DNA from: Paraglaciecola polaris LMG 21857
Lineage (GTDB): Bacteria > Pseudomonadota > Gammaproteobacteria > Enterobacterales > Alteromonadaceae
NCBI RefSeq assembly: GCF_000315055.1
Contig: NZ_BAER01000096.1
Coordinates: 1-47,737, forward strand
DNA: 47,737 nucleotides
Direction: 5' to 3'
The notes beneath the pieces are model-generated. The model was not told the DNA's origin and searched no databases. It worked only from the letters and a program-made list of their open reading frames with translations. The position numbers and the translations under genes were made by a program. This document shows positions 20,907-41,201 of the stretch, piece by piece (the first letter of the stretch is position 1; every line of letters begins with the position of its first letter).

Positions 20907-21158
20907 CTAATAAATGTGTTGTTTTTGGAAGTCATCTTTAGCCGTTTGTATCGCAGACCAGGTAGAAACCGAATAAGGAACAAAATAAGAAATCAATATT
21001 TTGAGTATGTCTGCAAGGGTGATCGTACCCATCAATATATTGTCTCCATGATTAATTAAACCTAAAAGCGTACCGACGACTAAAGCAACTTTAATACTTC
21101 TATTGCGTATATCTGGGCGAAACAGCAACCCGCGTGTAGTTAATTTCACTTGAGGCAT
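20907..21158 (-). CDS. NrtS-like small membrane protein
   Basis: The 83-residue product has two hydrophobic segments, one in IKVALVVGTLLGLINHGDNI and one in DILKILISYFVPYSVSTWSA. The LINHGD and VPYxVS motifs resemble the NrtS family, described as small nitrate/nitrite transporters. The ATG at 21158 lies inside the end of the preceding dehydrogenase gene (12-base overlap), so translation is likely coupled. Its place at the end of a protocatechuate operon is unexpected; transport of another small anion or an aromatic acid cannot be excluded. Confidence 0.72.
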   Translation of the reverse strand: MPQVKLTTRGLLFRPDIRNRSIKVALVVGTLLGLINHGDNILMGTITLADILKILISYFVPYSVSTWSAIQTAKDDFQKQHIY

Positions 21159-22087
21159 TGGGCTAACCTGTCTAAAGTTTGCATGGCACGAAAGCATGTT
21201 ATTACACTAGCGTTAGGTTCACGCTCTTCGCTTATCGCGCTAATAAACTCTCGGTCTATAAGCTCTATACCGTTCATGGATACCGCCACATCGGTTAGGT
21301 CAATTGGGTTTGATTGACCGTCGAAAAGGTCATCATAGCGGGCTAGATAGGTGCCGTTGTCGCACACATAGCGAAAATTACTGCCTAAGGGACCATCATT
21401 ATTAAAGGATAGTGCCAATGTGCAAACCGCTCCGGATGGCACTTTCATGATAATACTCATGTCTAGGGCGATACCCAATTCAGAGTGAATAGGTCCCTGT
21501 AGCGCATAACACTGTGATACGACTTCTCCCGTTTGGTATTGAAACAAATCGACGGTATGACAAGCGTGGTGCCATAACAGGTGATCCGTCCAACTACGAG
21601 CCTCACCTAGGGCGTTAGTGTTCTTACGGCGTAAGAAGAAGGTTTCCACGACCAAATGCTGAATAGATAAGGTGCCCGTGCGGATTTTCTGATGGATCCA
21701 TTGATGACTAGGATTAAAGCGCCGAACATGCCCCACCATAGCAACCTTGTTAGAACGCGTGGCTGCATCAACCAGTGCTTGGGCGTCAATAATATTGTCA
21801 GCCATAGGTATCTCGACTAACACGTGTTTATTCGCAGTAAGTGCCTGAATGGCTTGCTCCGCATGCATATGTGTGGGGGTGGCTAAAATGACGGCATCTA
21901 TATCATCTCGCGCCAGTGCTTGGGCATAATCATTGCTAAAATCCTCAATGGCATATTTTTTCGCGACGCTTTTTGTCGTCGCTGGGTCTGCCCCCACCAA
22001 GCTAATGCTGCGCACTTGGCCAATGTTCTTCAGCGCTTCAATGTGTTTACTGCCAAACGCGCCTTCACCGATCACGCACACATTCAT
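21146..22087 (-). CDS. ligC: Gfo/Idh/MocA oxidoreductase, probable CHMS dehydrogenase LigC
   Basis: LigC oxidises 4-carboxy-2-hydroxymuconate-6-semialdehyde (the ring-cleavage product, as its hemiacetal) to 2-pyrone-4,6-dicarboxylate with NADP+. The 313-residue protein has the N-terminal dinucleotide fold VCVIGEGAFGSKHIEAL, the AVILATPTHMHAEQAI strand and the VEIPMADN segment where the family often has EKP. The C-terminal domain has WHHACHTVDLFQYQTGE. Family membership is clear; the LigC assignment rests on size, on the known LigC belonging to this family, and on its place one base after ligI. The ATG at 22087 has GGGAG upstream. Confidence 0.82.
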   Translation of the reverse strand: MNVCVIGEGAFGSKHIEALKNIGQVRSISLVGADPATTKSVAKKYAIEDFSNDYAQALARDDIDAVILATPTHMHAEQAIQALTANKHVLVEIPMADNIIDAQALVDAATRSNKVAMVGHVRRFNPSHQWIHQKIRTGTLSIQHLVVETFFLRRKNTNALGEARSWTDHLLWHHACHTVDLFQYQTGEVVSQCYALQGPIHSELGIALDMSIIMKVPSGAVCTLALSFNNDGPLGSNFRYVCDNGTYLARYDDLFDGQSNPIDLTDVAVSMNGIELIDREFISAISEEREPNASVITCFRAMQTLDRLAQCLK

Positions 22088-22088
22088 A

Positions 22089-22985
22089 TTATTTAACTCC
22101 CGCATTAACCTGCTCTGGCCAATATAAACGCATGGGATTATCCACCAGTAATTTGTGTTGTAGTGCTGGCGTCACCGCTATGCGTGGGATCATATTGACC
22201 AGTTTTCCGTCATCCGGCATATGCGATTTCATATTGGGATGCGGCCAGTCAGTGCCCCACAAAACTCTATCTGGAAAGGTCTCAACGACTTTACGGCCAA
22301 AAGGAACAAAGTCATCATAACCATCTGGACCTGAGATAGAAATCCGTTCTGGGCAGGTCACTTTTGACCAATAATTAGGGTTGTAATCGAGTAATTTCAA
22401 AAATAAATCGAATTCCGCGCCATTAATGTCTTTATTTAAGTCAGGTCGACCCATGTGATCGACGACAACTGTGGTGGGCAGGGAACTAAAAAAGTCAAAA
22501 TATTCGGCGAGGTCGCTCGCTTCAAAGTAAATGACAATATGCCAATTTAATTTAGCAATACGCTGGGCAATAGCCGTTAATTCATCAAATGGCAGGGCAT
22601 CAACTAGACGTTTAACAAAGTTGAAGCGCACGCCGCGCACACCTGCTTCATGCAGTCTAAATAACTCTTCGTCTGTTACATCGCCACGGACCGTTGCTAT
22701 GCCGCGTGCTAGGTCATTGGCGTGGGCTAAGGCATCAACGAGCGCTGAGTTATCTGCACCATGACAGGTGGCTTGAACAATCACATTGCGGCTGAATTTT
22801 AGGTGGTCTCTTAATGCCCACAGCTGATCTTTGCTCGCGTCACAAGGCGTATATTTGCGTTCGGGTGCATAAGGAAACTGCGCCGCTGGGCCAAATACAT
22901 GACAATGAGCGTCTACCGCGCCTGCCGGGGGGATGAAAGTTGGCTGGCTGGGATTGGGGTGAAAAGGGATCCAGTCTTTGTCCAT
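22089..22985 (-). CDS. ligI: 2-pyrone-4,6-dicarboxylate hydrolase
   Basis: LigI opens the lactone 2-pyrone-4,6-dicarboxylate to 4-oxalomesaconate. The 298-residue amidohydrolase-superfamily protein has the strand-1 motif GAVDAHCHVFGP, then YAPERKYTPCDAS, VDHMGRPDLN and the C-terminal WGTDWPHPN with the catalytic Asp. This pattern (PDC hydrolases need no metal, although they keep HxH) fits LigI well. It lies between ligB and ligC in the first lig operon, 68 bases after ligB and one base before ligC. Confidence 0.93.
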   Translation of the reverse strand: MDKDWIPFHPNPSQPTFIPPAGAVDAHCHVFGPAAQFPYAPERKYTPCDASKDQLWALRDHLKFSRNVIVQATCHGADNSALVDALAHANDLARGIATVRGDVTDEELFRLHEAGVRGVRFNFVKRLVDALPFDELTAIAQRIAKLNWHIVIYFEASDLAEYFDFFSSLPTTVVVDHMGRPDLNKDINGAEFDLFLKLLDYNPNYWSKVTCPERISISGPDGYDDFVPFGRKVVETFPDRVLWGTDWPHPNMKSHMPDDGKLVNMIPRIAVTPALQHKLLVDNPMRLYWPEQVNAGVK

Positions 22986-23053: not shown

Positions 23054-23899
23054 TTATTTGTCTTCGTTCTCTAACACAATAATACCTGCACCAGTATTTG
23101 ACGCTGGCACATGATAATGGCGATAAATCTCTTTTGCGTTATCGTCCAATGCCCCGCGCATAATCATCCACATGACTAATTCTGCACCTTCAGAGCCTGC
23201 TTCTCGTAAGTACTCAACGTGTGAGATGTTTATGAGTCTATCCACGTCGTTAGTCAGATCATCCAAAAATGCTTTGTCAAACGCAGGGTTAACTAAGCCA
23301 GCCCGTTCACCCTGTAATTGATGGGACATGCCACCAGTGCCAAATATAGCGACTTTTATGTCTTCGTCGAAAGACTCAACCGCTTTTCGAATCGCTTTGC
23401 CTAAATTGAAGCAGCGATTACCGGTAGGGGAGGGGTATTGAATAACATTGACGCACAATGGAATGACTTTACACGGCCATTCTTCTGGTTTTCCACAGGT
23501 GATGGAAAGTGGCACGGTTAAACCATGGTCAACGGGAAGTTCGTTGGCTATGGTCATGTCAAATTCGTCAAATATAAGCGATTCAGCAATGTGCCAAGCG
23601 AGTTTAGAATGCCCTTGAACAACGGGCACTTTACGTGGCCCAAATCCTTCATCAGCTGGTGCGAATTGATCCGCAACGCCAATCGCAAATGTTGGGATAA
23701 GTTTTAAAGAAAAAGCAGATGCATGATCATTGTAAACAATGATAGCCACATCAGGCTTTTCTTTTTCCATCCACGCTTTTACTGGCTCATAACCATCAAA
23801 CAGTGGTTTCCAATAATCGGTTTGTGTTGCATCGTGGTCGACTGCACCACCAATTGGTGGTACGTGAGATGTGCCTATTCCTGCAAATAATTTCGCCAT
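23054..23899 (-). CDS. ligB: Protocatechuate 4,5-dioxygenase, catalytic beta subunit
   Basis: LigB holds the non-haem Fe(II) that cleaves protocatechuate between C4 and C5. In the 281-residue protein the iron ligands are visible as H12 in IGTSHVPP, H59 in YNDHASAF and a Glu in EGAELVMWM. The catalytic base His is in FGTGGMSHQLQGERAG. The ATG at 23899 overlaps the ligA stop as TAATG, which fixes the start over an upstream in-frame ATG at 23911. The overlap fits the tight alpha2beta2 assembly of this enzyme. Confidence 0.96.
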   Translation of the reverse strand: MAKLFAGIGTSHVPPIGGAVDHDATQTDYWKPLFDGYEPVKAWMEKEKPDVAIIVYNDHASAFSLKLIPTFAIGVADQFAPADEGFGPRKVPVVQGHSKLAWHIAESLIFDEFDMTIANELPVDHGLTVPLSITCGKPEEWPCKVIPLCVNVIQYPSPTGNRCFNLGKAIRKAVESFDEDIKVAIFGTGGMSHQLQGERAGLVNPAFDKAFLDDLTNDVDRLINISHVEYLREAGSEGAELVMWMIMRGALDDNAKEIYRHYHVPASNTGAGIIVLENEDK

Positions 23900-24291
23900 T
23901 ATTTTTTCCACTCTGAAGTATATCTGTTGCCGTCTATCTGCCTTCCACCGTCCAGCATCATTTTCTGAAATGTTTCTTTGCTAACACCTGACATCGCTGC
24001 GCCAACTTCTTGCATGGTCAGGCCGTCGAAAATCGCAATTTTGAAGGTATAGTAAAAATTTCCACCTAGGCGTAGCATATCAATCCAATTGCGCTCAAGT
24101 ACCGCTTTGCGTTGTTCAGGTGTTACTGGAAACTTATCCAAATAGTGTGTTTCACTTTCACGGAATTCATCGCGATTCTTTGCTTCGTTCAGTGACATGC
24201 AGAACATGTTTAAATGATAACCCTGTCTGGAGTGCTCCGGATCAAATACGTATGTACCGGGAATATCGCTGTAATCTCTGTCTGTTCTCAT
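23899..24291 (-). CDS. ligA: Protocatechuate 4,5-dioxygenase, alpha subunit
   Basis: LigA forms the lid of the LigAB active site and has no metal of its own. The 130-residue protein has the LigA-type helical pattern YHLNMFCMSLNEAKNRDEFR, RKAVLERNWIDMLRLGGNFY and GLTMQEVGAAMSGVS. It is the first gene of the ligABIC operon and is translationally joined to ligB. The 330-base gap upstream should hold the operon promoter. Confidence 0.95.
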   Translation of the reverse strand: MRTDRDYSDIPGTYVFDPEHSRQGYHLNMFCMSLNEAKNRDEFRESETHYLDKFPVTPEQRKAVLERNWIDMLRLGGNFYYTFKIAIFDGLTMQEVGAAMSGVSKETFQKMMLDGGRQIDGNRYTSEWKK

Positions 24292-24622
24292 TTAGTTAAC
24301 TCTCTTGGGGGAAACCTATTTGTTTACTACACGCATATTATTGAAACTTTTCTTAATAGAGCTAAAGTCTAGTTCTATTGAGTGGGTGAATTCAAATTCA
24401 GAAAAGTGAAAAGCTAATGAGAAATGGTACTCATCAAGTTTCAAATTTGGAGACGTTTGAATGTAACAGTGGCTATGCTCTGCTGTTAGGGCAAACGCAA
24501 CGTTAACGCACAGAGCACTGAATAACGCGCTATTTCGAAAGGTAAAATGCCAGATCTAACCATGGCGAATGTCGTTTCGCTATCGCCGCTTAGATCTGAC
24601 ATTAACTTATTTTCAACGAGTT
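24292..24622. other. Intergenic region before ligA
   Basis: No gene is seen. The left part should carry the ligABIC promoter, read on the minus strand; the right part carries the hairpin listed at 24550. No convincing LysR-type or TetR-type operator was recognised, and the 19-bp palindrome found upstream of the pump operon is absent. Confidence 0.45.
24550..24599 (-). terminator. Long imperfect hairpin behind the peroxiredoxin-like gene
   Basis: CCAGATCTAA (24550-24559) pairs with TTAGATCTG (24590-24598), and inner GGCGA/TCGCC arms can extend the stem. It lies about 25 bases behind the stop of the minus-strand gene ending at 24623. The following U-tract (ATTTTAC) is short, so it may serve as a partial terminator or 3'-end protector. 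Confidence 0.5.
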
Positions 24623-25162
24623 TTACGCTGAACCTCTAGGGGGACGAGCTGCGTTATCTTTTACAAAATCAAGGTATGCCAAAATATCTGCCGGTTCTGT
24701 TCGCGCAAAAGCATTTGACGCTATCCATGCGGCGAATACAGTGCCATCCTCGCGAATGAGAAACGATGCCGGTTCGCAAAACAGGGGCATTTCAATTGGT
24801 TTAACTTGTTTTGATACGAACACGCCCAGTAGACGTGCTTGCTCAATAGGCAGATTAATGCCTATTTCAAGCTTATCCAAGTTCAACTCAACCACAGTTG
24901 AACTTGCCCTTTCCAAGGTGTCAGCACTGACTGCAACCATGTTTACGTTTCTGGCGCTGAACTCATCATGAAGCCTGTTCAGTTCCATCAACTGGTGCTT
25001 ACAATGCCCACACCACATGCCACGATAAATAGTCAATAGCGTAAAAGCGTAGTGCATTTTAGCCTGGCTATTCCATTGGCCTCCAGACAACAACTCGAAT
25101 GTCAGTTCAGGAATGGCGGTACCTGTTATACGATTAGGGTAGTTTGTCTGCATTTGGGTCAT
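24623..25162 (-). CDS. AhpC/TSA-type peroxiredoxin-like protein
   Basis: The 179-residue protein has a thioredoxin fold with TLLTIYRGMWCGHCKHQLME, in which C51 and C54 form a CxxC where typical peroxiredoxins of this type have a single peroxidatic Cys. MVAVSADTLERAS and CEPASFLIREDGTV follow. It may reduce peroxides or disulphides. The gene is separated from the ALDH gene by only five bases, so it belongs to the GST-SDR-ALDH operon. Related AhpC/TSA proteins are often found near glutathione- and aldehyde-handling genes. The ATG at 25162 is chosen; one at 25153 is nearly as good. Confidence 0.8.
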   Translation of the reverse strand: MTQMQTNYPNRITGTAIPELTFELLSGGQWNSQAKMHYAFTLLTIYRGMWCGHCKHQLMELNRLHDEFSARNVNMVAVSADTLERASSTVVELNLDKLEIGINLPIEQARLLGVFVSKQVKPIEMPLFCEPASFLIREDGTVFAAWIASNAFARTEPADILAYLDFVKDNAARPPRGSA

Positions 25163-25167
25163 ACCTA

Positions 25168-26619
25168 TTAACTTTGAATCGTAACCCACTTAAGGTCGGT
25201 AAAGGTTTCCAGATCTGCCTCTGTGCCTTCACGACCAAAGCCACTGTCACCGATGCCACCAAATGGCACGTGTGCTTCGTCAGAAATAGACGGGCTGTTA
25301 ATATGGACCATGCCGCTTTCAATGCCTTTGGCAAAAGCCATAGCATTATTGAGGTTAGCGGTATAAATGGCGGCACTGAGTCCGTACTCGGTATCATTTG
25401 CACAGCTTAGGGCTTCGTCAAAAGAATCAACCGGATAGATACTCACCACAGGGCCAAATGTTTCTTGTTGGCAAACATCCATTTCCTTGGTGACATTGAG
25501 CAGTACAGTCGGTGCGCATCGATTACCCGTCCACACTCCGCCCGTAGCCAGTTCAGCACCTTTTGATACGGCATCTTCAATATGTTGTTTAATGCGGTCT
25601 CGCTGGCGATCACTGATTATCGGGCCAATGATGGTTTCTGGATCCCGTAGATCACCCATACCGATTTTGCTGGCAATTCCGACGTACATTTCAACAAATT
25701 TCGGGTAAATCGTCTTCTCTACATAAATTCTACTCGAGCCGATACAGGCTTGCCCTTGATGCATGAAAATACCACGCAGTGCACCTTGCACAGCATCTTT
25801 CATATTGGCATCCGCCATAATAACGAGGGGGTTTTTACCGCCGAGTTCTAAGGTCACGTGTTTGTTTTGTTCTGCACACAATTTCTGGATGTGCTTACCG
25901 ACAACCGTAGAACCCGTAAAGGTCACCGTTTTAATTAATTTGTGTGTCGTCAAGGCATCGCCAATTTTGTATCCGTTACCCGGTACAACGTTAACGGTTC
26001 CAGAGGGGAAGCCTGCTTCAGCTAAAATTTCTGCGAAACGCAAAGACACAATAGGCGTGTGCTCTGATGGCAATAAAACGACCGTGCTGCCTGTTGCCAG
26101 TGCGTTAGCACATAAGCGCGCAGCTTTAATTAGCGGCACATTAAAGGGCGTAATGACGGCCACAACCCCTCTTGGGGCGCGGATGGTCATGCTAATTTTA
26201 TCGGGGTAATCAGACGGTAACGTTTTGCCCGTCATTTGCCTAACCATACCAGCAGAGGCGCGTACAAATGAAACGGCCTTTTCCGCTTCAAAGGAGGCTT
26301 TTCGATAGGCTGAGCCGCCTTCATCTATCAAGATGTCTTTTAACTCATCTATGTACTGCTCCATCAAGTCCGCTGCTTTACACAGCATCTTCTCACGCTC
26401 TTTAGTGGTGGTGTGCTTATAAGTTTGAAATGCTTTATGTGCAGACTCAACGGCCCTATTGACATCATCCACGGTACTTTCTGCGACGTTGCGATAAAGG
26501 CTATCATCCAGTGGATTTAATACCGCTAAAACGCCACCGTCCGAAGCTGCCGTAGGCTTATTATCAATCCAAATTCCATCCAAATTGGGACCAAGGTTAC
26601 CTGTGTTACAAAATGCCAT
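25168..26619 (-). CDS. Aldehyde dehydrogenase, vanillin/benzaldehyde dehydrogenase-like
   Basis: The 483-residue NAD(P)-dependent enzyme has the ALDH signatures FTGSTVVGKHI (cofactor), VTLELGGKNPLVI with the general-base Glu, and HQGQACIGSSRIYVE with the catalytic Cys. The end VPFGGIGDSGFGREG is normal. The overall pattern, including GMVHINSPSISDEAHVPFGG, recalls benzaldehyde and vanillin dehydrogenases such as LigV/Vdh, which would yield vanillate or hydroxybenzoate for the protocatechuate pathway. The ATG at 26619 follows GGAGAACG; frames starting at 26631 and 26643 are also open. No vanillate demethylase is present in the window, so the methoxylated substrate is only one possibility. Confidence 0.87.
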   Translation of the reverse strand: MAFCNTGNLGPNLDGIWIDNKPTAASDGGVLAVLNPLDDSLYRNVAESTVDDVNRAVESAHKAFQTYKHTTTKEREKMLCKAADLMEQYIDELKDILIDEGGSAYRKASFEAEKAVSFVRASAGMVRQMTGKTLPSDYPDKISMTIRAPRGVVAVITPFNVPLIKAARLCANALATGSTVVLLPSEHTPIVSLRFAEILAEAGFPSGTVNVVPGNGYKIGDALTTHKLIKTVTFTGSTVVGKHIQKLCAEQNKHVTLELGGKNPLVIMADANMKDAVQGALRGIFMHQGQACIGSSRIYVEKTIYPKFVEMYVGIASKIGMGDLRDPETIIGPIISDRQRDRIKQHIEDAVSKGAELATGGVWTGNRCAPTVLLNVTKEMDVCQQETFGPVVSIYPVDSFDEALSCANDTEYGLSAAIYTANLNNAMAFAKGIESGMVHINSPSISDEAHVPFGGIGDSGFGREGTEADLETFTDLKWVTIQS

Positions 26620-26691
26620 CTCGTTCTCCATCAATAGTGGCACTCACTGCGGATAAACCACAAATTTGAGCACCGCTATGCAAACTAGTTA

Positions 26692-27447
26692 TTAATAATT
26701 TATTGCGCCGCCATCGACGTTCACGCATTGTCCGGTCACAAAATCACTATCCTCTGAGGCCAAATAGTAAAGTGTACCCAGTAGGTCTTCTGGCAACATC
26801 TCACGTTTAATAACGCGAGCCGCCAAGGTTGGTGCTTTGGCCGCGCCTAATTGTTTGTGCTCTTTTACGCCTTCGCTTTCAGTCAGGCCGACCAAAATAC
26901 AATTCACTAATACCTTATCAGCCCCTAGTTCAGCAGCGAGTGCACGGGTTTGCCCGACAATCGCGCCTTTTGAGGAAACGTAATGACAAAACATCGGCGC
27001 GCCGCGTAAAAACGTACCTGAGGCGATATTGATGATTTTGCCGCGGCCATTTTTGCGCATGCTAGGCACGATCGCTTTGGCACATTGAAAAGGACCACGC
27101 ACGTTCACGCGCATGACAAGATCCCATTCGTCTTCAGTGATTTGACTGAAGGGTTTTAGCTCCAAGCTCGCGAAAATGGCCGCGTTATTGACCAAAATCT
27201 CGATCGGCCCAAATTCAGCTTCGGTTTGCGCAACCAGTGCATTTAACGAATCATTGTTTGTTACGTCCGCGGTGCAACCGATTGCAATGCCGCCGCTGGC
27301 ATTTATTTCAGCCACCACAGCGGATGTATCCGCTACATCAGCAACGACCACTTTCGCCCCTTGTGAAGCGAGGCCAATAGCATACGCTGCACCAATACCT
27401 TGTGCTGCACCAGTAACGACTGCGACCTTTCCATCTAATCTTTTCAT
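26692..27447 (-). CDS. SDR-family oxidoreductase (copy 1 of a paralogous pair)
   Basis: The 251-residue short-chain dehydrogenase has the cofactor loop VVTGAAQGIGAAYAIGLA, the NNA motif in ILVNNAAIF, catalytic Ser in INIASGTFLRG, YxxxK in YVSSKG, and a C-terminal TGQCVNVDGGAINY. D36-type residues in VVADVADT suggest preference for NAD. It differs from the second copy at 31584 in about 24 of 251 residues. In lignin degradation, SDRs of the LigD/L/N type oxidise the alpha-alcohol before GST cleavage of the ether, and this gene lies directly downstream of a LigF-like GST. That role is inference; the true substrate is unknown. Confidence 0.9.
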   Translation of the reverse strand: MKRLDGKVAVVTGAAQGIGAAYAIGLASQGAKVVVADVADTSAVVAEINASGGIAIGCTADVTNNDSLNALVAQTEAEFGPIEILVNNAAIFASLELKPFSQITEDEWDLVMRVNVRGPFQCAKAIVPSMRKNGRGKIINIASGTFLRGAPMFCHYVSSKGAIVGQTRALAAELGADKVLVNCILVGLTESEGVKEHKQLGAAKAPTLAARVIKREMLPEDLLGTLYYLASEDSDFVTGQCVNVDGGAINY

Positions 27448-27476
27448 TTCATTCTCACTTATAAATAAAGAGGAAG

Positions 27477-28289
27477 TTAAGCCATACCTATGATGCGTTT
27501 CACATCAGGCCAGGTTTGCACACCAAAGGTGGCAAGATCCTCGGTTAAATCTGCTGGACACCAATCAAGAAAAGCGGCTTTAAAATCTGGTCGCTGTTTT
27601 ATTCTGCTAAACCAATCAGCCACATGGGGTAAACGGCCGTTTTCCCACATACCAGACATGTTCAACATGTCTAACCGGTTAACGTACGGTGTTAAGCCAA
27701 TATCTGCTAAAGAGAAGGTTTCACCCGCTAACCAAGTGTGGTTTTTAAGGGTCTCTTCCATTTTCGATAAGTAGCCATCATAAAGACGAATTGTGTCTTC
27801 GATTCCAGGGGCGTCAAATCCCATTAGTACGATTTGTTTTTTACGCTCTTTCCACTTAGAGGTAACAGACTGGTCTGGTGTACTGCTTAAAAATTCCTGC
27901 ATTTTTTCTTTGCCTAGACGCTGCACAATAAAGCGATGACAGCAGACAAATGTCAGTTCGCCGCACGCAGGGTGAAGTTGCTCGTCAACCGCTTTAGTCC
28001 AAATGCGCATTAACGTTTTTTCATAGGCGCCCTCTGGCTTTAAACTTGGTCCAGGAAACACCTCATCAAGATATTCGCAGATAACCGTAGATTCGTTGAT
28101 AATCAGGCCGTCATGTACCAAAGACGGCACAACCGCTTTAGGATTTATCTTGCGATAATCTTCGGTAAACTGCTCACCTTTAAGAATGTCTATATAGTGT
28201 GCGTTATCCACCTGCACTTGCTTTTCAGCCAGAGCGAATCTTACTTTGGCGGCACATACTGAAGAACCATGATGATATAAGTCGAGCAT
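27477..28289 (-). CDS. Glutathione S-transferase, LigF-like (beta-etherase type)
   Basis: The 270-residue protein starts with a thioredoxin-fold N-domain (MLDLYHHGSSVCAAKVRF). The glutathione-binding segment is VVPSLVHDGLIINESTVICE, followed by YLDEVFPGPSLKP and RIWTKAVDEQLHPA. A helical C-domain ends with WLAGETFSLADIGLTPYVNR. The block NESTVICEYL...FP and R-WTK-VDE is the pattern of LigF-type beta-etherases, which cleave beta-aryl ethers with glutathione, and of related fungal-type GSTs. Candidate activating residues are S9, S10 and C12. It is the first gene of the GST-SDR-ALDH-peroxiredoxin operon. Ring-opening isomerase or dehalogenase activity cannot be excluded. Confidence 0.82.
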   Translation of the reverse strand: MLDLYHHGSSVCAAKVRFALAEKQVQVDNAHYIDILKGEQFTEDYRKINPKAVVPSLVHDGLIINESTVICEYLDEVFPGPSLKPEGAYEKTLMRIWTKAVDEQLHPACGELTFVCCHRFIVQRLGKEKMQEFLSSTPDQSVTSKWKERKKQIVLMGFDAPGIEDTIRLYDGYLSKMEETLKNHTWLAGETFSLADIGLTPYVNRLDMLNMSGMWENGRLPHVADWFSRIKQRPDFKAAFLDWCPADLTEDLATFGVQTWPDVKRIIGMA

Positions 28290-28507
28290 ATCTATTACCT
28301 TTACTTAGAAAAAATAACGGCGGTATCCCAGCCGTTGGTTTGGAAAAAATGTTCTTTATGACTGCTTTCACGCTTTGCCTATTAAGGTTTGACGCTTTTT
28401 TACATTCGTTTTCTCACCACTTGATGAAAATCCTGCTCCCGTTCTAGGGAAATGTTAATTACTTGATTGCTTAGCAATTCTTATTATTTTGTTTATAAAC
28501 TTCACTT

Positions 28508-28535
28508 CTTCAAGACGGCACATGCCGCCTTGAAG
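28508..28535. terminator. Strong hairpin between the TonB-dependent receptor and the GST gene
   Basis: CTTCAAG and CTTGAAG flank inner CGGCA/TGCCG arms, with one A-C mismatch between the two stem parts and a two-base loop. It starts 12 bases behind the receptor stop. No U-tract follows on the minus strand, so Rho-independent termination is not assured; it may protect the 3' end or reduce read-through to the GST operon. Confidence 0.5.
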
Positions 28536-28546
28536 CATCCTGAGGC

Positions 28547-30862
28547 TTAATAACGATATTTAAGCTTGAGGGTGATTTCACGTGGTGGCGCCATCGCGGC
28601 CAAAATATTTGGACCTGACGGAACACCCCAGGCCAAAATTTCCTCATTTGTTAAATTCTTGCCTATTAAAGAGATAGTAACGTTTTCATCAGGCGAAATA
28701 ACACGCAGGCTGGCGTTATAGGTCTCATAGGCTTTTTGCTCCACTGTCGGTCTGTAGGTAATATCAGTGAATTGAGCACCGTTGAATGCAATATCAGTGC
28801 GTGCGCTGAAGTCCCATTCGCCAAAAAGATCGTCATAGTAATATTCAGCGAATAACGCGCCTTTCGTTTCAGGGGCATAGATAAGGGGCTGTCCACTTAA
28901 ATCACAGACGCCATCACCATTGAGGAATTTAGGGTCGCAATCGGCGGCGCCAACAAACTTGTCATAGGTTGCATCTGTGTAGGCAAAGTTACCGCCTAAA
29001 GTCCAGTTGTCGGCGGCGTGCCATAATACTTCTAACTCGACGCCTTCACTGGTGCTATCAGCCGCGTTACCCACAGTAAACTGCGCCACAGAGCCGGCTA
29101 ATTGGGTTGCAAGTTGTAACCCTTCTATATTCATACTAAAGACAGTGAAATTAACGTTTAACGTGCCTTCTAACCAAGTCGTCTTGGCACCAAATTCAAG
29201 TGAATCCACTTCTTCCGCATCAAACTCGATTTGGGCGTCTTGTTCATCAATACGATCACTGAATCCACCTGTTTTATGCCCTTGGGCGAAGGTTCCATAA
29301 AGATTGATGTCATCATGGGCTTGCCATTGAATAGTGACTGATGGAGTGAACTTACTTTCACTTCTGCTCTCGATACGATTCACTTCATCTTCGCCAAGTA
29401 CGTTCTGAGTTTGGTACTCTTTCAAGAAACGCCGGAAGGCGAAATCTTTATCTTCGGTAGCCCAGCGCCCACCGATAATGCCGGTCCAATCTTCATTGAA
29501 TTTATAACGAGCTTGTCCAAACAGTGCCAAGGTTTCGGTGTCTTGAGTCCACGGCTCTTCTTCGGTCACTTTAGGGCCAGCTAATGAGGTGAGATTGAAG
29601 TGAGAGGTTTGGCCACGCGCTAAGCTACTGTCTTCGTAGTAAAGTCCGACAATGTAGTCGAACGTGTCACTTTCCTCTGACGTAAAGCGAACTTCCTGAC
29701 TAAACCCATCGTATTTTTCATGGCGATTTGCTCTGAATAAGTTAGCAAGCCCCATATCTAAACCTTGAAAGTTATGGTCATACTCATACTCTTGGTATGC
29801 TGAAATCCACGTTAATGCGCCAGCTTCGAAGTCATGTTCAACATTAAAGGTTATATTGGTTGAATCCTGATCCCTTGACGGGCAAAAAGAGCCGATGTCA
29901 TTGCCCTCTTGGTCTGTGGCTGGCCCGCAATTATAGTGCACAACCCAGTCTAATTTAGGCTCAGTCACTGTACTTCCGTCAGCACCTGATCCCGTCGATA
30001 GGTTTTGCCAAACGGCTAAAGGTGGTCCACCTAACGCATTGATTTCGGCAGCATCAGAGCCATACTCGTCAAATTCCATGTACTCTAATTTCAAACCAAC
30101 TTTGGTGTTTTCACTGGCACGCCAAGCAAATTTTGCTCTAACGCCGGTATCTTCGCGGTTTGCGCCGTCAGGACCATTGAGGGTATTTTCATAAAAGCCA
30201 TCTTTGTCACGATAAATAAAGGCTAAACGCGCATCCACGGTATCGCTGAGTGCGCCGGTCACATAGCCTGAGACTTCTTTTGTGCCTCCAGTCGTGCTGT
30301 ATGTACTGGCGGATACATCAAAACCATAACCAAAATTACTGTCCGGGTTTGCGGTGCGCAAAATCATGGCACCTGCCGCTGTGTTCTTGCCAAATAATGT
30401 CCCTTGTGGGCCTCGTAACACTTCCACCGCTTCTATATCTAAAAATGGATGTAAGTTAATAGCAGCACGGCTGATGTACACGTCATCCACGAATCGGCCG
30501 ACCGATTGCTCAATAGAATGTGATGTGCCGCCGCCTAATCCACGCACGTAAAGGTTGGGTAATATTCCAGCACTGTTAATTTCGAAATTGGGGATCAGGA
30601 TGGAAAGGTCTTCCATGTCACTAATGCCGACCTTGTCGATGAGATCTGCGGAAACGGCTGCCACTGAAACGGGCACATCCTGAATACTTGCGGGGCGTTT
30701 GGTAGCAGATACGAGAATAACTTCTACGTCACTCTCTTTGGTTTTTTCCATTTTTTCTTGTGCAAAAGCCTGATTAATACCGAGCGTTAATGTGGAAAAA
30801 ATAAAACAGTGATGTAAGCTGCGTAGATATTTATTATTTTTCTTCTTCTCTGTCAAACTCAT
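28547..30862 (-). CDS. TonB-dependent outer-membrane receptor
   Basis: The 771-residue protein has a signal peptide ending near NQAFA-QE, a TonB-box-like EVILVSATKR, and a plug with DVPVSVAAVSADLIDKVG, FEINSAGILPNLYVRGLGG and EVLRGPQGTLFGKNTAAGA. A 22-strand-type barrel follows, ending in REITLKLKYRY. This is the catecholate/organic-molecule type abundant in Sphingomonads and Alteromonads, not the Oar type. The ATG at 30862 has AGGGG upstream; the frame extends to 30898. Placed between the GST operon and the pump/SDR operon, it is a good candidate to import the aromatic substrate, but siderophore import cannot be excluded, particularly as a Fur-like fragment is nearby. Confidence 0.93.
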   Translation of the reverse strand: MSLTEKKKNNKYLRSLHHCFIFSTLTLGINQAFAQEKMEKTKESDVEVILVSATKRPASIQDVPVSVAAVSADLIDKVGISDMEDLSILIPNFEINSAGILPNLYVRGLGGGTSHSIEQSVGRFVDDVYISRAAINLHPFLDIEAVEVLRGPQGTLFGKNTAAGAMILRTANPDSNFGYGFDVSASTYSTTGGTKEVSGYVTGALSDTVDARLAFIYRDKDGFYENTLNGPDGANREDTGVRAKFAWRASENTKVGLKLEYMEFDEYGSDAAEINALGGPPLAVWQNLSTGSGADGSTVTEPKLDWVVHYNCGPATDQEGNDIGSFCPSRDQDSTNITFNVEHDFEAGALTWISAYQEYEYDHNFQGLDMGLANLFRANRHEKYDGFSQEVRFTSEESDTFDYIVGLYYEDSSLARGQTSHFNLTSLAGPKVTEEEPWTQDTETLALFGQARYKFNEDWTGIIGGRWATEDKDFAFRRFLKEYQTQNVLGEDEVNRIESRSESKFTPSVTIQWQAHDDINLYGTFAQGHKTGGFSDRIDEQDAQIEFDAEEVDSLEFGAKTTWLEGTLNVNFTVFSMNIEGLQLATQLAGSVAQFTVGNAADSTSEGVELEVLWHAADNWTLGGNFAYTDATYDKFVGAADCDPKFLNGDGVCDLSGQPLIYAPETKGALFAEYYYDDLFGEWDFSARTDIAFNGAQFTDITYRPTVEQKAYETYNASLRVISPDENVTISLIGKNLTNEEILAWGVPSGPNILAAMAPPREITLKLKYRY

Positions 30863-31011
30863 GATGTAAACCCCTAGTTCCAATATGTATTCGCTCAAGT
30901 GTGTGAACGTCTTCCTTCATTACCGCTTTTTCGGTGCATGTCGCCCATTAAGATTTTAGTGATGCTGGTGGACTGCGGTAACTTGGTGTTAAGAAGTTAA
31001 CTTTGATACCA

Positions 31012-31583: not shown

Positions 31584-32339
31584 CTAATAATTGATTGCGC
31601 CACCGTCAACGTTGACACATTGACCCGTGATAAAATCGCTATCCGCTGATGCTAAGTAGTAAAGAGTGCCAAGCAGATCTTCTGGCACCATTTCGCGTTT
31701 TATCAATCTGGCCGCTAGGGTAGGTGCTTTAGCGGCGCCCAATTGTTTATGCTCTTTAACACCTTCGCTTTCGGTTAAACCAACCAAAATACAATTAACT
31801 AAAATGTTATCAGCCCCTAGTTCAGCGGCCAGGGCGCGGGTTTGCCCGACAATGGCGCCTTTGGATGAAACGTAATGGCAAAACATGGGCGCGCCGCGTA
31901 AAAAGGTGCCTGAAGCAATATTAATAATTTTGCCACGACCATTTTTACGCATGCTAGGCACGATCGCTTTTGCGCACTGAAACGGCCCGCGTACATTTAC
32001 GCGCATGACGAGATCCCATTCATCTTCAGTGATTTGGGTAAATGGCTTTAATGCTAACGTCGCGAAGATAGCGGCATTGTTGATTAATATTTCTATCGGC
32101 CCAAATAGCGCTTCAGTTTGGCTGACCATTGCGTTTAACGATTCATTATTAGTCACGTCAACCTTGCAGCCAATTGCCCTGCCGCCTTGGGCGGCGATTT
32201 GTGCGACAACTGAAGCCGTATCGGCGATATCTGCAACTACTACTTTTGCCCCTTGAGCAGCTAAACCAATCGCATATGCAGCGCCAATACCTTGGGCTGC
32301 CCCCGTTACTACTGCTACTTTTCCATCTAATCTTTTCAT
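31584..32339 (-). CDS. SDR-family oxidoreductase (copy 2 of a paralogous pair)
   Basis: Same length (251 residues) and motifs as the SDR at 26692: VVTGAAQGIGAAYAIGLA, ILINNAAIF, INIASGTFLRG, YVSSKG and VNVDGGAINY. About 24 residues differ, nearly all in the first 100 and last 50 residues; the middle block from TEDEWDLV to LAAELGAD is identical at protein level but has many synonymous base changes. The ribosome binding region (GAGAATGAAATG) is also the same in both. It follows the HlyD gene by 43 bases and so seems to belong to the TetR-controlled pump operon. The frame extends upstream to 32396, but the paralogue fixes the ATG at 32339. Confidence 0.9.
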   Translation of the reverse strand: MKRLDGKVAVVTGAAQGIGAAYAIGLAAQGAKVVVADIADTASVVAQIAAQGGRAIGCKVDVTNNESLNAMVSQTEALFGPIEILINNAAIFATLALKPFTQITEDEWDLVMRVNVRGPFQCAKAIVPSMRKNGRGKIINIASGTFLRGAPMFCHYVSSKGAIVGQTRALAAELGADNILVNCILVGLTESEGVKEHKQLGAAKAPTLAARLIKREMVPEDLLGTLYYLASADSDFITGQCVNVDGGAINY

Positions 32340-32382
32340 TTCATTCTCATTTTTTAGGTTAAGGTAAATCAATTCCGATGTT

Positions 32383-33429
32383 TTAAATTTTTTCACTGTT
32401 TGCGGTATTTATGGTGGGGGTGACTGACATGCCTACCCGCAGTTTGCTCGCGTTTTTTTGAGTCATATCAATGCTGATGCGCACGGGTAAACGCTGGACG
32501 ATTTTAGTGAAATTCCCTGTTGCATTGTGTGGCGCAATAGCCGAATAGCTTACGCCGCTGGCAGGTCCTAGACTTTCGACTTTTCCGGATAGATTCACCC
32601 CTGGTAGGGCATCCACCTCGATATCAACGGACTGCCCGGGTTGCACATTGGCCAGTTGCGTTTCACGGTAATTCGCAGAAATATAGATAGCAGATGTGGG
32701 AACGATCACCGCTAGTGGTTTGCCAGTGCTAACAAATTCACCTACGCGAGCTGTTTTTCTACCGATCACGCCATCAATGGGGGAATAAACTTTACTGTAA
32801 GACAACTTTAATTGTTGCGTGTTTAGGTCCGCTCGGGCTAAAGCTAACGCCGCCACAGCATTGTCTACGTTGGCACTTAGTACCTTTAGTTGTTGCTTGG
32901 CGAACGAAATTTGCGCCAAGCTTTTGGTTAAATTAGATTGCTCGATGGCCAGTTTGGCATTGGCTTGCTGGCGTGCTTGTACACTGCCTGAACCATCGTC
33001 AGCTAGATTACTAAAACGGGTTTGATCGGCCTTGGCTAATGTAACCGATGCCTGATTCGCGTTGAAAGTGGCTTCTGCGCGTAAAATCTCAGCTTGTTGC
33101 TGTGTGAGCTGGGCTTCAAAACTGGCTAACGTTGCCTGGGCACTACCTACTTTCGCTTTGCCAGCAGCAACCGTTAAAACAAAATCTTTATCATCAATAG
33201 CAACCAATAAATCTCCTTTGTGAACCGGTTGGTTTTCCGCTATCAGTACATCTGTAATGGTTCCAGAGATTTTTGCCCCGACAGCACTGAAGTCAGCTTG
33301 CACATAAGCATCGTTAGTCGACTGTGATGCACTGCTAGAATCCGGTTGATTGATATACGCTATGCAACCGATTGCCAGCGCAATACACACAGTGGCTACG
33401 GTTAATTTGATGGGAGTAGGTAAAGCCAT
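32383..33429 (-). CDS. HlyD/EmrA-type membrane fusion protein
   Basis: The 348-residue periplasmic adaptor has one N-terminal membrane anchor (ATVCIALAIGCIAYI), a biotinyl-lipoyl-like half domain with DFSAVGAKISGTITDVLIAE, and a long alpha-helical hairpin rich in A, Q and L (about 80-200). The second half has YSPIDGVIGRKTARVGEFVS and a beta-barrel domain to the end. EmrA-type adaptors link an MFS pump of the inner membrane to an outer-membrane channel. It follows the MFS gene by 23 bases in the nodT-mfs-hlyD order. Confidence 0.93.
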   Translation of the reverse strand: MALPTPIKLTVATVCIALAIGCIAYINQPDSSSASQSTNDAYVQADFSAVGAKISGTITDVLIAENQPVHKGDLLVAIDDKDFVLTVAAGKAKVGSAQATLASFEAQLTQQQAEILRAEATFNANQASVTLAKADQTRFSNLADDGSGSVQARQQANAKLAIEQSNLTKSLAQISFAKQQLKVLSANVDNAVAALALARADLNTQQLKLSYSKVYSPIDGVIGRKTARVGEFVSTGKPLAVIVPTSAIYISANYRETQLANVQPGQSVDIEVDALPGVNLSGKVESLGPASGVSYSAIAPHNATGNFTKIVQRLPVRISIDMTQKNASKLRVGMSVTPTINTANSEKI

Positions 33430-33452
33430 GTTTGTTTCCTTTTTTAAATAGG

Positions 33453-35027
33453 TTAGTTCGAATTGGATTGTGCGCTGGGCGCAGGAATGTGGGTCATACG
33501 TAAAACTAAAGGGATCAATAAGCAGGCGGCCACGCCGAAAATGCGATATATGTCAGCAACCGATAAGGTCATTGATTGCTGGGCAATGGCTTGACCTAGC
33601 CCAGCGACACTCAGTTCTGAAAATACCGTGTTGCTGCTTGTCGAGTGCTCGATAAGCATTTCTGTATGGAAGTTCCCTCGGATAACCAATAGGTGACCGA
33701 CTAAAGCGCCACCAATAAGCGTACCGAGGACGCGCAGCGTATTAATGATGCCAGAGAAATACGGGCCTTCTGTGTGATGCACTATGCTCGTCATCAAGAA
33801 CAGCATAGAAACCACAGCCATTGGTTGGCCAACGGCTTGTAAAACTTGGGCAATGAGAAATTGCTCTCTATTCCACTGGGCGGTCAGTTCGGCGCCGAAG
33901 AAACATGCGCAGGCTATTAAAAGCAAACCGATTGAAAATACAATGCGCGCATCCGTCCATTTTTTATACAACAGTAAAGCGACGAGCGAACCAAGCACCA
34001 ATTGCGGTAGGGCGACGATTAGGCCTAATTGAGCCGATTGGTAGATTCGGTATTCTTGCAAAGCAGCCAAAAAATTGAGCGGCAATGAAGTCGCAGACAT
34101 CAATACAATCAATAAGATAGTAAAGATAATGGCGCCCAAGCCGAGGTTTCTACGCCCAAGCAGTCGAAGATCAATAAAGGGCGTAGGGTGATACCATTCA
34201 GTGAGTAAATACAGGGAGAACAAGATCACGCCGCTTATCAAACTCAGGGTGATCAAAGTAGAATTGAACCAATCCAAACGTACACCTTGAGTCAAAGCAA
34301 TGGTCAGTAACGCCATACCAACCACGCCAAGTGCCATTCCCAACCAATTTCCTTGGCTAAAGCGTGGATATTTAATCTCTTCTTTAGGCAGCCCTGCATT
34401 AACAAGCCCGATAGCAAGCACACAAAGTGGGATCACCTGCCAATAAATAAGACGCCAATCGTTAAAACCGTCAGTCCATTGTCCAGTCAACCAAATGGCA
34501 ATATTGGGTGAAAATGTAGCGGTCATCGCGTACAGCGCAAGCCCATGAAGACGCAGATGAAGGGGCAACGCCTTTAACGCCATCATCATTAACAGGGGCA
34601 CTAATGCGCCACTTGCCATACCTTGCACAAAACGTAAGGCAATCAGTAGTGAAAGGTCATGAATAAATGGCAGTATTAGCGCAATAACGGCGCACAGAGC
34701 GACTGTATAAGTATGGAAGCGTCTAATGGATAATGTTATCGCGAACCAAGTGGCAAAGGGAGTGATGAGCAGTTCACCGGCGAGGTAGCTGGTTGTTACC
34801 CATGAAGAACCGTCCACGCCAAACCCAAGCGCACCGCGCACATCGATTAACCCCAAGGCGCCGACCCGATTGTTAAGGCCTGCCATCATGGCGCTGATAA
34901 ATATGCCAAGCAGTACCAGCATGACCTTCACTGGGAGATGGGACGTGGGTTTGGCCACGGTTGCCGTCTCAGCCGCACTATTAGCGGGTGCCTTTGTGGG
35001 AATGGTTATTGTCATACTATTTGCCAT
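33453..35027 (-). CDS. DHA2-type (EmrB-like) MFS drug/aromatic efflux transporter
   Basis: The 524-residue protein has about 14 membrane segments and the DHA2 pattern: FISAMMAGLNNRVGAL in the first helix, DGSSWVTTSYLAGELLITPF, and RFVQGMASGALVPLLMMMAL. Such pumps expel hydrophobic drugs, aromatic acids or other weak acids using protons. The ATG at 35027 lies 11 bases inside the end of the outer-membrane factor gene and has GAGGT before it; a longer frame to 35114 is open but lies within that gene. In this setting the likely load is an aromatic intermediate or by-product. Confidence 0.93.
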   Translation of the reverse strand: MANSMTITIPTKAPANSAAETATVAKPTSHLPVKVMLVLLGIFISAMMAGLNNRVGALGLIDVRGALGFGVDGSSWVTTSYLAGELLITPFATWFAITLSIRRFHTYTVALCAVIALILPFIHDLSLLIALRFVQGMASGALVPLLMMMALKALPLHLRLHGLALYAMTATFSPNIAIWLTGQWTDGFNDWRLIYWQVIPLCVLAIGLVNAGLPKEEIKYPRFSQGNWLGMALGVVGMALLTIALTQGVRLDWFNSTLITLSLISGVILFSLYLLTEWYHPTPFIDLRLLGRRNLGLGAIIFTILLIVLMSATSLPLNFLAALQEYRIYQSAQLGLIVALPQLVLGSLVALLLYKKWTDARIVFSIGLLLIACACFFGAELTAQWNREQFLIAQVLQAVGQPMAVVSMLFLMTSIVHHTEGPYFSGIINTLRVLGTLIGGALVGHLLVIRGNFHTEMLIEHSTSSNTVFSELSVAGLGQAIAQQSMTLSVADIYRIFGVAACLLIPLVLRMTHIPAPSAQSNSN

Positions 35028-36582
35028 CACGCACCTCAGACATGGCTGCTGCATTATTCGGTCTGGATATCGTTGCTGCGTCGGTGGCAGCGAAAACCGG
35101 TGCGGTTGGGTCATTATTGCTCACATCCCAGCCCCCACCGAGTGCTTTATAGAGCGTAACAAGACTAAGAGTGGCATTGGTTGCGCTATCATTGAGTGCC
35201 ATTCTACTGTCGAGCACGTTACGCTGTGCAGTGAGGACATTTAGATAATTTCCTGCGCCTTCTTGATAGTTTCGTTGGGCGAAATGCAACGCTATTTTGT
35301 AGCTTTCGTAAGCATCATTTAAGTGATCAAACTGACTCCGTTGTGAGGCAAGGCCGTCCAAGGCGTTGTCAACTTCATGCCATGCGTTAAGCACGGTTTG
35401 CCGGTACGCTAACGCGGCGCTTTTTTGCTTCGCTTCGGTTAACTTGAGGCGCTGTTTTAGCTCACCTCCTTGAAATATTGGAAGGTACACAGCTGGTCCC
35501 ACTGAGAAAAAACTGGAATCCCAACTGGCTAAGTCACTACTTTGGAATGCCTCAAATCCCGAACGACCAACAAGCGTGATACGCGGGTAGAAATTTGATT
35601 GAGCCACACCAATGGCGGCGGTCGCTTGATGCAATTGCGCTTCTGCTTTTAAAACATCAGGACGCTTGTGCGCGAGTTGGGCAGGTATGCCAACAGGAAT
35701 CGTTTTGGGGAGTGACGGCAATGGCACATCATTGATTAACTCTTCGTCTAACGCTCTGGGGTTTTCTCCTAGCAACAAGGCTAATTTATTCATTTGCGTA
35801 TTTCTGCGTTCGACTAATTTGGGGATTTGCGCTGTGACTGCGGCCAGTTGAGCGCTTGCCATTGATGTTTCAAATTTGCTGGTTAAACCATTTTTTGTTG
35901 TGCTTTTGACTAACGTCAATTTGTGTTCAGCAATTTGCTTGTTTTGCTCGGTGATGCGCAGCTGAGCCTGAATTCCTCGAAACTGTAAGTAATTACGAGC
36001 GACTTCGGCAGCAAGGGTGATTTGATACGCTTCGCGCGCTAAAACGGTTACTTCAAACTCAGCTTGAGCGCCTTCTACAGTGCGTTTTATATGCCCCCAT
36101 AAATCAATTTCCCAGCTTGCATCGAACCCAGCCTGCCAATAATCGTTACCGCTGCTTTTTGCGCCTAACGCTGCAAACTTACTGTTATCGCTGATGTCTT
36201 CTCGAGTGTAACTGCCACTCGTGGATACTTTGGGGAGGTAGTTGGATGAGGTTATCCCTAGATTTGCGCGGCTTTGTTCGACTCGGCTAGCCATTATTTT
36301 CAAGTCTAAATTTGCCAAGCGCGCTCGTGCTTCTAAATTTGAAAGGATAGGATCGTTAAATAAAGTCCACCATTGAGATGAGATATCTGCGTTGGATACT
36401 GGGTATTGATGGCTGTGATCATCACGTGCGGCAAGATCAATTTGTGTCGCGGTGGCGCTGGGAGAGGTAAAGTTAGGGCCCACGGTGCAGCCAGTCAATA
36501 ACGCAATACCTACCGCGATACCTATTTTTTTCAACATTCGGCTGGCAGTGGCAGTGGCTGTGTTGTGAGTATTGTTACGCAT
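35017..36582 (-). CDS. NodT-family outer-membrane efflux lipoprotein
   Basis: The 521-residue protein has a lipoprotein signal with the lipobox ALLTGC followed by TVGPNFTSP, the standard opening of RND/MFS outer-membrane factors. Two OEP repeats follow, each with helical hairpins (SQWWTLFNDPILSNLEARAR, RARLANLDLKIMASRVEQSR; ITLAAEVARNYLQFRGIQAQ; GLTSKFETSMASAQLAAVTA). It forms the trimeric channel-tunnel for the MFS/HlyD pump encoded next. It is the first gene of the operon facing tetR, with two copies of a palindrome in the shared promoter region. Confidence 0.95.
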   Translation of the reverse strand: MRNNTHNTATATASRMLKKIGIAVGIALLTGCTVGPNFTSPSATATQIDLAARDDHSHQYPVSNADISSQWWTLFNDPILSNLEARARLANLDLKIMASRVEQSRANLGITSSNYLPKVSTSGSYTREDISDNSKFAALGAKSSGNDYWQAGFDASWEIDLWGHIKRTVEGAQAEFEVTVLAREAYQITLAAEVARNYLQFRGIQAQLRITEQNKQIAEHKLTLVKSTTKNGLTSKFETSMASAQLAAVTAQIPKLVERRNTQMNKLALLLGENPRALDEELINDVPLPSLPKTIPVGIPAQLAHKRPDVLKAEAQLHQATAAIGVAQSNFYPRITLVGRSGFEAFQSSDLASWDSSFFSVGPAVYLPIFQGGELKQRLKLTEAKQKSAALAYRQTVLNAWHEVDNALDGLASQRSQFDHLNDAYESYKIALHFAQRNYQEGAGNYLNVLTAQRNVLDSRMALNDSATNATLSLVTLYKALGGGWDVSNNDPTAPVFAATDAATISRPNNAAAMSEVRDGK

Positions 36583-39156: not shown

Positions 39157-39168
39157 TTTTTATTATTC

Positions 39169-39867: not shown

Positions 39868-39870
39868 AAA

Positions 39871-40962: not shown

Positions 40963-41055
40963 ATTCATCCCCTAGTTCAGTTGGCAATATTCTATGAACT
41001 TGAAAGCTTCTCGACTAATGGAAAAAAATTAGCCAGCCATGTGAAAAATAAAATT

Positions 41056-41071: not shown

Positions 41072-41201
41072 ATCTATTGCGCTTTTGTACTCTGGAGTCG
41101 CCAATTAACGTGGGGCGATAGGTGGTCATGTAATAATTGGTATGAAATAAAAAAAATGAATGCTAGATTATTAAATGAATATTTATTATTTGGATATTGA
41201 T

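Follow-up and report, generated by a model that had tools for sequence, protein, structure and literature searches.

The studied window is the whole contig NZ_BAER01000096.1 (C51, 47,737 nt) of Paraglaciecola polaris LMG 21857, a probably marine gammaproteobacterium, the genome of which (5.24 Mb, 146 contigs) is rated 100% complete. It encodes a TonB-dependent receptor (TBDR), a glutathione S-transferase (GST1), a short-chain alcohol dehydrogenase (SDR1), an aldehyde dehydrogenase (ALDH) and a CxxC redoxin-like protein next to lig genes for protocatechuate 4,5-cleavage. Judged from sequence, we tentatively favour the view that this locus serves as the upper pathway in the breakdown of a halogenated 3,4-dihydroxybenzyl alcohol, with lanosol that has been freed from sulfate esters as the likeliest substrate. 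Lanosol is 2,3-dibromo-4,5-dihydroxybenzyl alcohol, a red-algal bromophenol. An earlier note, made from the sequence alone, had described the five genes and had proposed a lignin beta-aryl ether route. The positions of the genes, all on the minus strand, were confirmed (Table 1), and their families were backed by Pfam and NCBIfam profiles.

In Vertebrata lanosa, lanosol-4,7-disulfate is described as a major metabolite (PMC9322897). The molecule is a benzyl alcohol with two bromines and with one sulfate each at a phenolic and at the benzylic position. Its conversion to protocatechuate would require sulfatases for the phenol and the benzyl ester, the removal of two bromines, and an alcohol and an aldehyde dehydrogenase. 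This list closely fits the gene cluster L134 of genome G915, which belongs to the same class as the window genome and is 71% complete; the match is one of chemical logic and not a proof. On a single contig, L134 unites an alkylsulfatase (PF14863), an arylsulfatase (PF00884), a haloalkane dehalogenase (NF002938, 325.4 bits, cut-off 241), GST3, a TBDR, GST2, GST1, an SDR and an ALDH, and further along an MFS transporter, a reductase of the siderophore-interacting type, and ligC, U, I, K, J, A and B. The identities to the window proteins are 53% for the TBDR, 73% for GST1, 68% for SDR1, and 58% for the ALDH.

Most parts of L134 were also found in the window genome, where they are spread over four contigs (C51, C56, C100, and C142). 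GST2 is located on C56. Contig C100 (L147) encodes an arylsulfatase that is 64% identical to that of L134, has the arylsulfatase 1hdh as its best PDB match (E 5e-140) and contains the active-site motif CSPSR. It adjoins a perhaps damaged gene of the alkylsulfatase family, for which a sec-alkylsulfatase was the best match in the PDB, as well as a TBDR gene and a LysR-type gene. The motif HGHGDH is present in this alkylsulfatase and in its paralogue on C142 (L148).

Two further genomes contain parts of the same gene set. In a metagenome-assembled genome of the Granulosicoccaceae (G580), one contig (L028) combines an alkylsulfatase, TRAP-type genes, GST2, an ALDH (58% identity), GST1 (60%), and an SDR that is cut by the contig end (52%), and a second contig carries ligAB together with an alkylsulfatase and a sulfatase. 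Genome G161 of the same genus as the window (loci including L022) has an SDR (73%), ligCIBA, a LysR regulator (60%), GST2, a TBDR (77%), ligUKJ and another ALDH, and the MFS transporter next to this cluster is the same as that of L134 (59%). GST1 was not found in G161, as the only GST match at E<=1e-30 was GST2. Ferredoxin reductase, ferredoxin, and cupin genes lie beside the G161 cluster (L102 13335-15187, L022 267-722), and no oxygenase was seen nearby. The earlier note had proposed that an importer, GST, SDR, and ALDH together form the upper pathway that leads to protocatechuate 4,5-cleavage, and this is supported by L134, L028, and L022, which combine several of these genes.

Among 196 genomes of the family, a sample that includes the window genome, the best match to GST1 outside the window genome had an E value of 8.1e-43, and among 398 genomes of the phylum three reached E<=1e-50, one of them the window genome itself. 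A scan of the collection retrieved 52 loci, the closest with 53-64% identity. The GST1 clade of 11 rows represents ten genomes, in three of which (window, G915, and G580) SDR and ALDH lie beside GST1; the GST1s of these three form a clade with a support of 98/97. The order of G915 is represented by three searchable genomes, and GST1 is present in G915 only. The neighbours of close relatives of GST1 in Rhodospirillaceae or other Alphaproteobacteria (L029-L034) are unlike those in the window and gave no clue; for L032 and L033, they were compared only by BLAST with the window proteins.

GST1 was analyzed at the levels of structure, active site, and phylogeny. The best PDB match is LigF (4xt0, E 5e-30, 32% overall identity), and the AlphaFold model (pLDDT 94.5) is also nearest to LigF by fold (Foldseek rank 1, E 5.5e-14). 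The designation as LigF-like in the earlier note holds at the level of the superfamily, but neither at the active site nor at the level of the clade. Cys12-Ala13 of GST1 align with Asn13-Ser14 of LigF, and among 65 aligned GST rows LigF alone has the Asn-Ser pair. Asn13 and Ser14 are reported to be common to LigF homologues with etherase activity (PMC6369299). S10 and C12 of GST1 are invariant in 25 chosen rows, and the S-x-C motif occurs in 48 of the 65. The score of GST1 with the LigE/LigP beta-etherase model NF042997 was 25.8 bits, far below the cut-off of 440. A GST tree was calculated with 72 rows, and one-clade tests were performed on 35 rows with groups that were chosen after the tree was seen. 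LigF and three sphingomonad homologues formed a separate clade without GST1 (support 100/98), whereas GST1 fell into a clade of 29 rows (99/98) that also contains the dehalogenase BbdI, without being its direct sister. The earlier note had named a firm placement among dehalogenases as one outcome that would speak against its proposal, and the tree shows such a placement only in part. Forcing GST1 and LigF into one clade was rejected (p 0.024). An exclusive clade of GST1 and BbdI was rejected more strongly (p 2e-5), which rules out GST1 as a close BbdI orthologue. The tree weighs against GST1 being a LigF orthologue, yet the tree alone does not make GST1 a dehalogenase.

A cysteine at the thiol position of glutathione, as expected for a reductive dehalogenase, is present in GST1 (Cys12). 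For DrcA, a GST of a slime mould, it was reported that a change from Asn to Cys at the glutathione site generates a reductive dehalogenase, that after the reverse change the reaction halts at the glutathione conjugate, and that PcpC and DrcA both have a catalytic Cys at this site, as in GST1, although DrcA, unlike GST1, belongs to a Ure2p-like class (PMC3205185). The GST reductive dehalogenases of the PcpC/DrcA/BbdI type are not one natural family. An approximate PcpC sequence, which can serve as a lead only, has 26% identity to GST1; with this sequence, the plasmids yielded no match of at least 60% identity.

One of the closest parallels is BbdI/BbdJ on plasmid pBAM2 of Aminobacter sp. MSH1, a 2,6-dichlorobenzoate system. 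BbdI was identified by its place on pBAM2, where it is repeated beside gorA, and by the description of bbdI as a glutathione-dependent thiolytic dehalogenase (PMC8460812). Like GST1, it is an S-x-C GST, and the two proteins share 33% identity over 268 aa, in an alignment of nearly full length that includes the C-terminal tail. The setting is also similar, as BbdI lies in a cluster for the catabolism of aromatics in which a gene for thiol recycling is present. However, the partner on pBAM2 is gorA instead of a CGHC redoxin, the importer is of the TRAP type instead of a TBDR, and, unlike in the window, no SDR, ALDH or ligAB is annotated within the 25 kb shown. On pBAM2, the GST-gorA pair occurs four times in tandem (L079 12004-22131), as described for bbdI/bbdJ. 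Related GSTs on Rhodobacterales plasmids (L108 8001-8789, L109 6001-6798) adjoin TRAP transporters, in the case of L109 also aromatic-catabolism genes.

The presence of Cys12 is not specific for dehalogenases because zeta GSTs share the Cys and because S-x-C occurs so widely in the GST set; we take S-x-C to be a zeta-class pattern. It is quite improbable that GST1 is a cis-trans isomerase for a ring-cleavage product, either of the zeta maleylacetoacetate isomerase type or similar to DesD in the 3-O-methylgallate route, for which the motif, the best NCBIfam model (maiA, TIGR01262, 78.7 bits) and the precedent of DesD, a GST among lignin-catabolism genes with a presumed role as isomerase, would speak. 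DesD (Saro_2865) is the NaLigF2 of PMC6369299. Both forms of the isomerase proposal were rejected, as the score of GST1 falls far short of the 171 bits required by the maiA model and no LigM/DesA candidate was found in a PF01571 search of the genome; in addition, the LigU tautomerase and LigJ already cover the protocatechuate route, and the sulfatases and the haloalkane dehalogenase of L134 would be left unexplained.

The aromatic compounds that the genome could feed into protocatechuate were also considered. No VanA_C domain (PF19112) is present in the window genome, compared with 4 of 14 control genomes. PF01571 (GCV_T), which we assume is able to catch LigM/DesA, had only two matches, a strong one of 385 aa and a weak one of 321 aa, presumably the sizes of GcvT and YgfZ, so that there was no LigM/DesA candidate in this search, which lacked a LigM positive control. 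For PobA, four weak model matches were obtained, none of them over the cut-off, and 4-hydroxybenzoate was rejected as a source; in six other lig regions from the family (L096-L101), PobA over the cut-off was encoded beside the lig genes in two cases. The single P450 of the genome (L110, contig C141) has 6g5o as its best PDB match (E 6.5e-189), which we take to be a 6-O-methylgalactose demethylase, and it was ruled out as a vanillate O-demethylase. Such P450s, together with ferredoxin and reductase, are reported to serve the use of red-algal porphyran (PMC10033563). A ferredoxin-reductase-like gene lies beside the P450 on C141, a possible sign of red-algal galactan use. Because no VanA, no PobA over the cut-off, and no LigM/DesA candidate were found, vanillate and 4-hydroxybenzoate do not seem, from the gene content, to be convertible to protocatechuate through known pathways and are unlikely sources, and therefore the entering aromatic compound should already bear the 3,4-dihydroxy pattern.

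These results make the lignin beta-aryl ether pathway, with GST1 as a LigF-like etherase, the SDR as a C-alpha dehydrogenase, and the ALDH as a vanillin dehydrogenase, very improbable. The similarities to LigDEFG of Sphingobium SYK-6 comprise the GST fold, the overall sequence of LigF, and the end of the route in protocatechuate 4,5-cleavage, and the adjacent lig genes and the vanillin dehydrogenases among the ALDH matches would also suit such a pathway. However, the proposal of the earlier note fails on the replaced active-site residues, the clade, the absence of a LigE-type score, and the lack of a demethylase candidate in the genome searches. In addition, none of LigD, LigL, and LigO, structures of which we assume to be in the PDB, was named among the 60 best of 330 PDB matches of SDR1.

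The best PDB matches of the ALDH included 4-hydroxybenzaldehyde and benzaldehyde dehydrogenases, with vanillin dehydrogenases at lower ranks and ALDHs of other kinds also on the list; no NCBIfam equivalog was reached. A search for the SDR in 369 genomes of the class detected it in three others (G915, G212, and G782). The CGHC protein is a possible thiol-disulfide partner of GST1, and relatives on plasmids are annotated as 'peroxiredoxin-like family protein'.

From the gene content, we infer the substrate, its halogen, the reactions, and the order of the steps as follows. The TBDR would import the bromophenol or its sulfate, and aryl- and alkylsulfatases encoded elsewhere in the genome would strip the sulfates. 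GST1, aided by the related GST2, would swap a halogen for glutathione, and Cys12 would take over the glutathione, so that the ring would remain in its reduced form. The thiols may then be regenerated by the CGHC protein. SDR1 and SDR2 would oxidise the benzyl alcohol and the ALDH the aldehyde to protocatechuate, which LigAB would open, and LigC, LigI, LigU, LigJ, and LigK would finish the route. An efflux pump encoded next to SDR2 would protect the cell against phenols.

Several observations weigh against the bromophenol route. Nothing within the window is specific for halogen or sulfate, and bromination of the substrate cannot be read from sequence; the respective clues stem from two loci only, L134 in an incomplete genome and L028 in a metagenome-assembled one. 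The alkylsulfatase-family gene on C100 (L147 9780-11006) encodes a protein that is 49 internal residues short of its paralogue and may, by its sequence, be inactive, and the full-length alkylsulfatase is on a separate contig, with no aromatic genes seen near it. PF14863 was also detected in 2 of 14 control genomes and so is no rarity, and it had no match in G161, despite the TBDR, SDR, GST2, and lig genes of that genome. The sulfatase on the ligAB contig of G580 is only 21-22% identical to those of L134 and the window genome. In seven of the ten genomes of the GST1 clade, SDR and ALDH are not beside GST1 in the flanks fetched. The SDR relatives in G782 and G212 (54-58% identity) are paired with ALDHs of 30-31% identity, and these pairs adjoin TRAP-type genes (by eye). 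SDR and ALDH are not tied to halogen because these pairs occur without a GST. A redoxin gene was seen in none of the loci L134, L028, and L022. Lastly, S-x-C is also the zeta-isomerase pattern, LigF is still the nearest solved structure, and the exclusive clade with BbdI was rejected.

Two explanations without dehalogenation have to be weighed. GST1 might add glutathione to reactive quinones or quinone methides, or remove it from them, where these arise from a 3,4-dihydroxybenzyl or phenylpropanoid compound that has no halogen but may be sulfated, with SDR, ALDH, and lig genes acting as proposed above. The S-x-C motif suits glutathionyl transfer from a conjugate, the operon includes the CGHC redoxin, and a halogen is proven by nothing inside the window. 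This explanation is nevertheless somewhat unlikely, as the L134 cluster includes a haloalkane dehalogenase, a relative of GST1 is described as a dehalogenase (PMC8460812), and the three GSTs of L134 and two of L028 better suit several carbon-halogen bonds. The second explanation, that a general detoxification GST and the redoxin stand in an aromatic operon by chance, without a step in carbon flow, is improbable. Stress proteins commonly include GSTs and peroxiredoxin-like proteins, an efflux pump is encoded nearby, and the redoxin gene was not seen in the related loci, but GST1, SDR, and ALDH are clustered in three genomes, which represent at least two families and the GST1s of which form a supported clade, and G161 has GST2 in its cluster.

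The positions of the genes and hairpins are summarized in Table 1.

Table 1. Genes and predicted RNA hairpins of the locus, with window coordinates
Feature	Position	Strand	Basis
ligC, GFO/IDH/MocA-type 4-carboxy-2-hydroxymuconate semialdehyde dehydrogenase	21146..22105	-	Pfam PF19858/PF01408; conserved in sibling clusters
ligI, 2-pyrone-4,6-dicarboxylate lactonase type	22089..22985	-	Pfam Amidohydro_2; lig-cluster position; conserved in sibling clusters
ligB, protocatechuate 4,5-dioxygenase beta	23054..23911	-	NF009903 (class III extradiol dioxygenase beta, subfamily model), 458.7 bits > cut-off 317
ligA, protocatechuate 4,5-dioxygenase alpha	23899..24291	-	TIGR02792, 131.3 bits > cut-off 108.6
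Strong hairpin, likely end of GST operon	24545..24615	-	RNA fold -27.7 kcal/mol, z -5.7; 3' of redoxin gene
CxxC redoxin-like protein (peroxiredoxin-like/thioredoxin fold)	24623..25189	-	Pfam AhpC-TSA, 52.6 bits; CGHC at residues 60-63
ALDH, probably aromatic type	25168..26643	-	PDB matches, homologues
SDR1, short-chain alcohol dehydrogenase	26692..27447	-	Pfam PF13561/PF00106; motifs TGAAQGIG, YVSSK
GST1, S10-x-C12 motif, 270 aa	27477..28289	-	Pfam GST_N/GST_C
Hairpin, likely terminator or attenuator	28490..28546	-	RNA fold -22.5 kcal/mol, z -4.0; directly 3' of TBDR stop codon
TBDR, Plug and beta-barrel	28547..30898	-	Pfam PF00593/PF07715
SDR2, SDR1 paralogue	31584..32396	-	90% protein, 79% DNA identity
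EmrA/EmrB/NodT-like tripartite efflux pump, three genes	32383..36582	-	NCBIfam
TetR-type regulator, divergent from pump	36824..37477	+	ORF sequence judged by eye
ligJ, ligK, ligU (OMA hydratase, CHA aldolase, OMA tautomerase)	38149..40968	-	Profiles and synteny
LysR regulator, PcaQ-like, probably of lig genes	41175..42440	+	NCBIfam PcaQ, 207 bits, below cut-off 303.8; 60% copy in G161 cluster

The genes for GST1, SDR1, ALDH, and the redoxin are tightly spaced, with gaps of 29 and 48 bp followed by an overlap, whereas wider gaps separate the TBDR from GST1 (257 bp) and the redoxin from ligA (331 bp). The likely start of the TBDR is the ATG at 30862, the end coordinate of the region in the earlier note. 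That note had described a tight operon directly before ligABIC and directly after the receptor. The close packing of the four genes, which are followed by ligA, B, I, and C, was confirmed, but because stable hairpins in the wider gaps set the TBDR and the lig genes apart from the GST run, the TBDR, the GST operon, and the lig genes are probably three adjacent predicted transcription units, and not one operon. A terminator-like hairpin of 12 pairs is also present between ligB and ligI (window 23037-23010, minus strand); the number of such matches in the region is near that expected by chance.

SDR2 and the ligJ/K/U genes were absent from the earlier note. Because ligJ, ligK, and ligU were found further upstream, the protocatechuate 4,5-cleavage route of the window looks complete (ligABCIJKU). 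LigU (NF033377, 503.5 bits, cut-off 440) and LigK (TIGR02798, 371 bits, cut-off 304.5) exceeded the curated cut-offs, as did LigA and LigB. LigC and LigI belong to the right Pfam families and have conserved synteny, but reached no equivalog model, and LigJ, which had no NCBIfam match of its own, was assigned by synteny and an identity of 63-80% in sibling clusters. By these assignments, the window seems to have the full set of the known ligABCIJKU cluster; in contrast to the latter, the set is split into two blocks by the TBDR, SDR2, the efflux pump and an isochorismatase-like gene, and pobA is lacking, unlike in two of the six other lig regions. Of the efflux pump models, TIGR01845 was above its cut-off (381.9 bits, cut-off 210), and TIGR00998 (227.5 bits) and TIGR00711 (141.0 bits) were below theirs.

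The LysR regulator (421 aa) has an apparent extra N-terminal helix-turn-helix region, and its PcaQ-like match begins at residue 123; relatives of similar length exist in G161 and G143. The adjacent TctB-like open reading frame (42494-43591) has partial-length matches of 59% and 39-42% to genes near other lig clusters. It has no Pfam match and an odd N-terminal half, the beginning of which may lie in the wrong reading frame.

Among the matches listed for the open-access literature on lanosol, bromophenols, and debromination, there was no bacterial pathway for the mineralisation of lanosol, which is weak evidence of absence. It is possible, though more doubtful than the assignment of the window locus itself, that a complete aerobic route for the import and mineralisation of sulfated red-algal bromophenols via protocatechuate exists in more than one bacterial lineage, in which several Cys-type GST dehalogenases would act together with sulfatases, SDR, and ALDH. 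In practice, the Asn-Ser pair has to be checked before a GST that is encoded beside ligAB and resembles LigF is called a lignin etherase. If the proposed route is real, GST1, GST2, SDR, ALDH, TBDR, and lig genes, together with sulfatases, would be its marker set. Such a route would be a natural counterpart of the pollutant-degrading PcpC and BbdI systems, and would provide a natural background for the GST dehalogenases of pollutant degraders.

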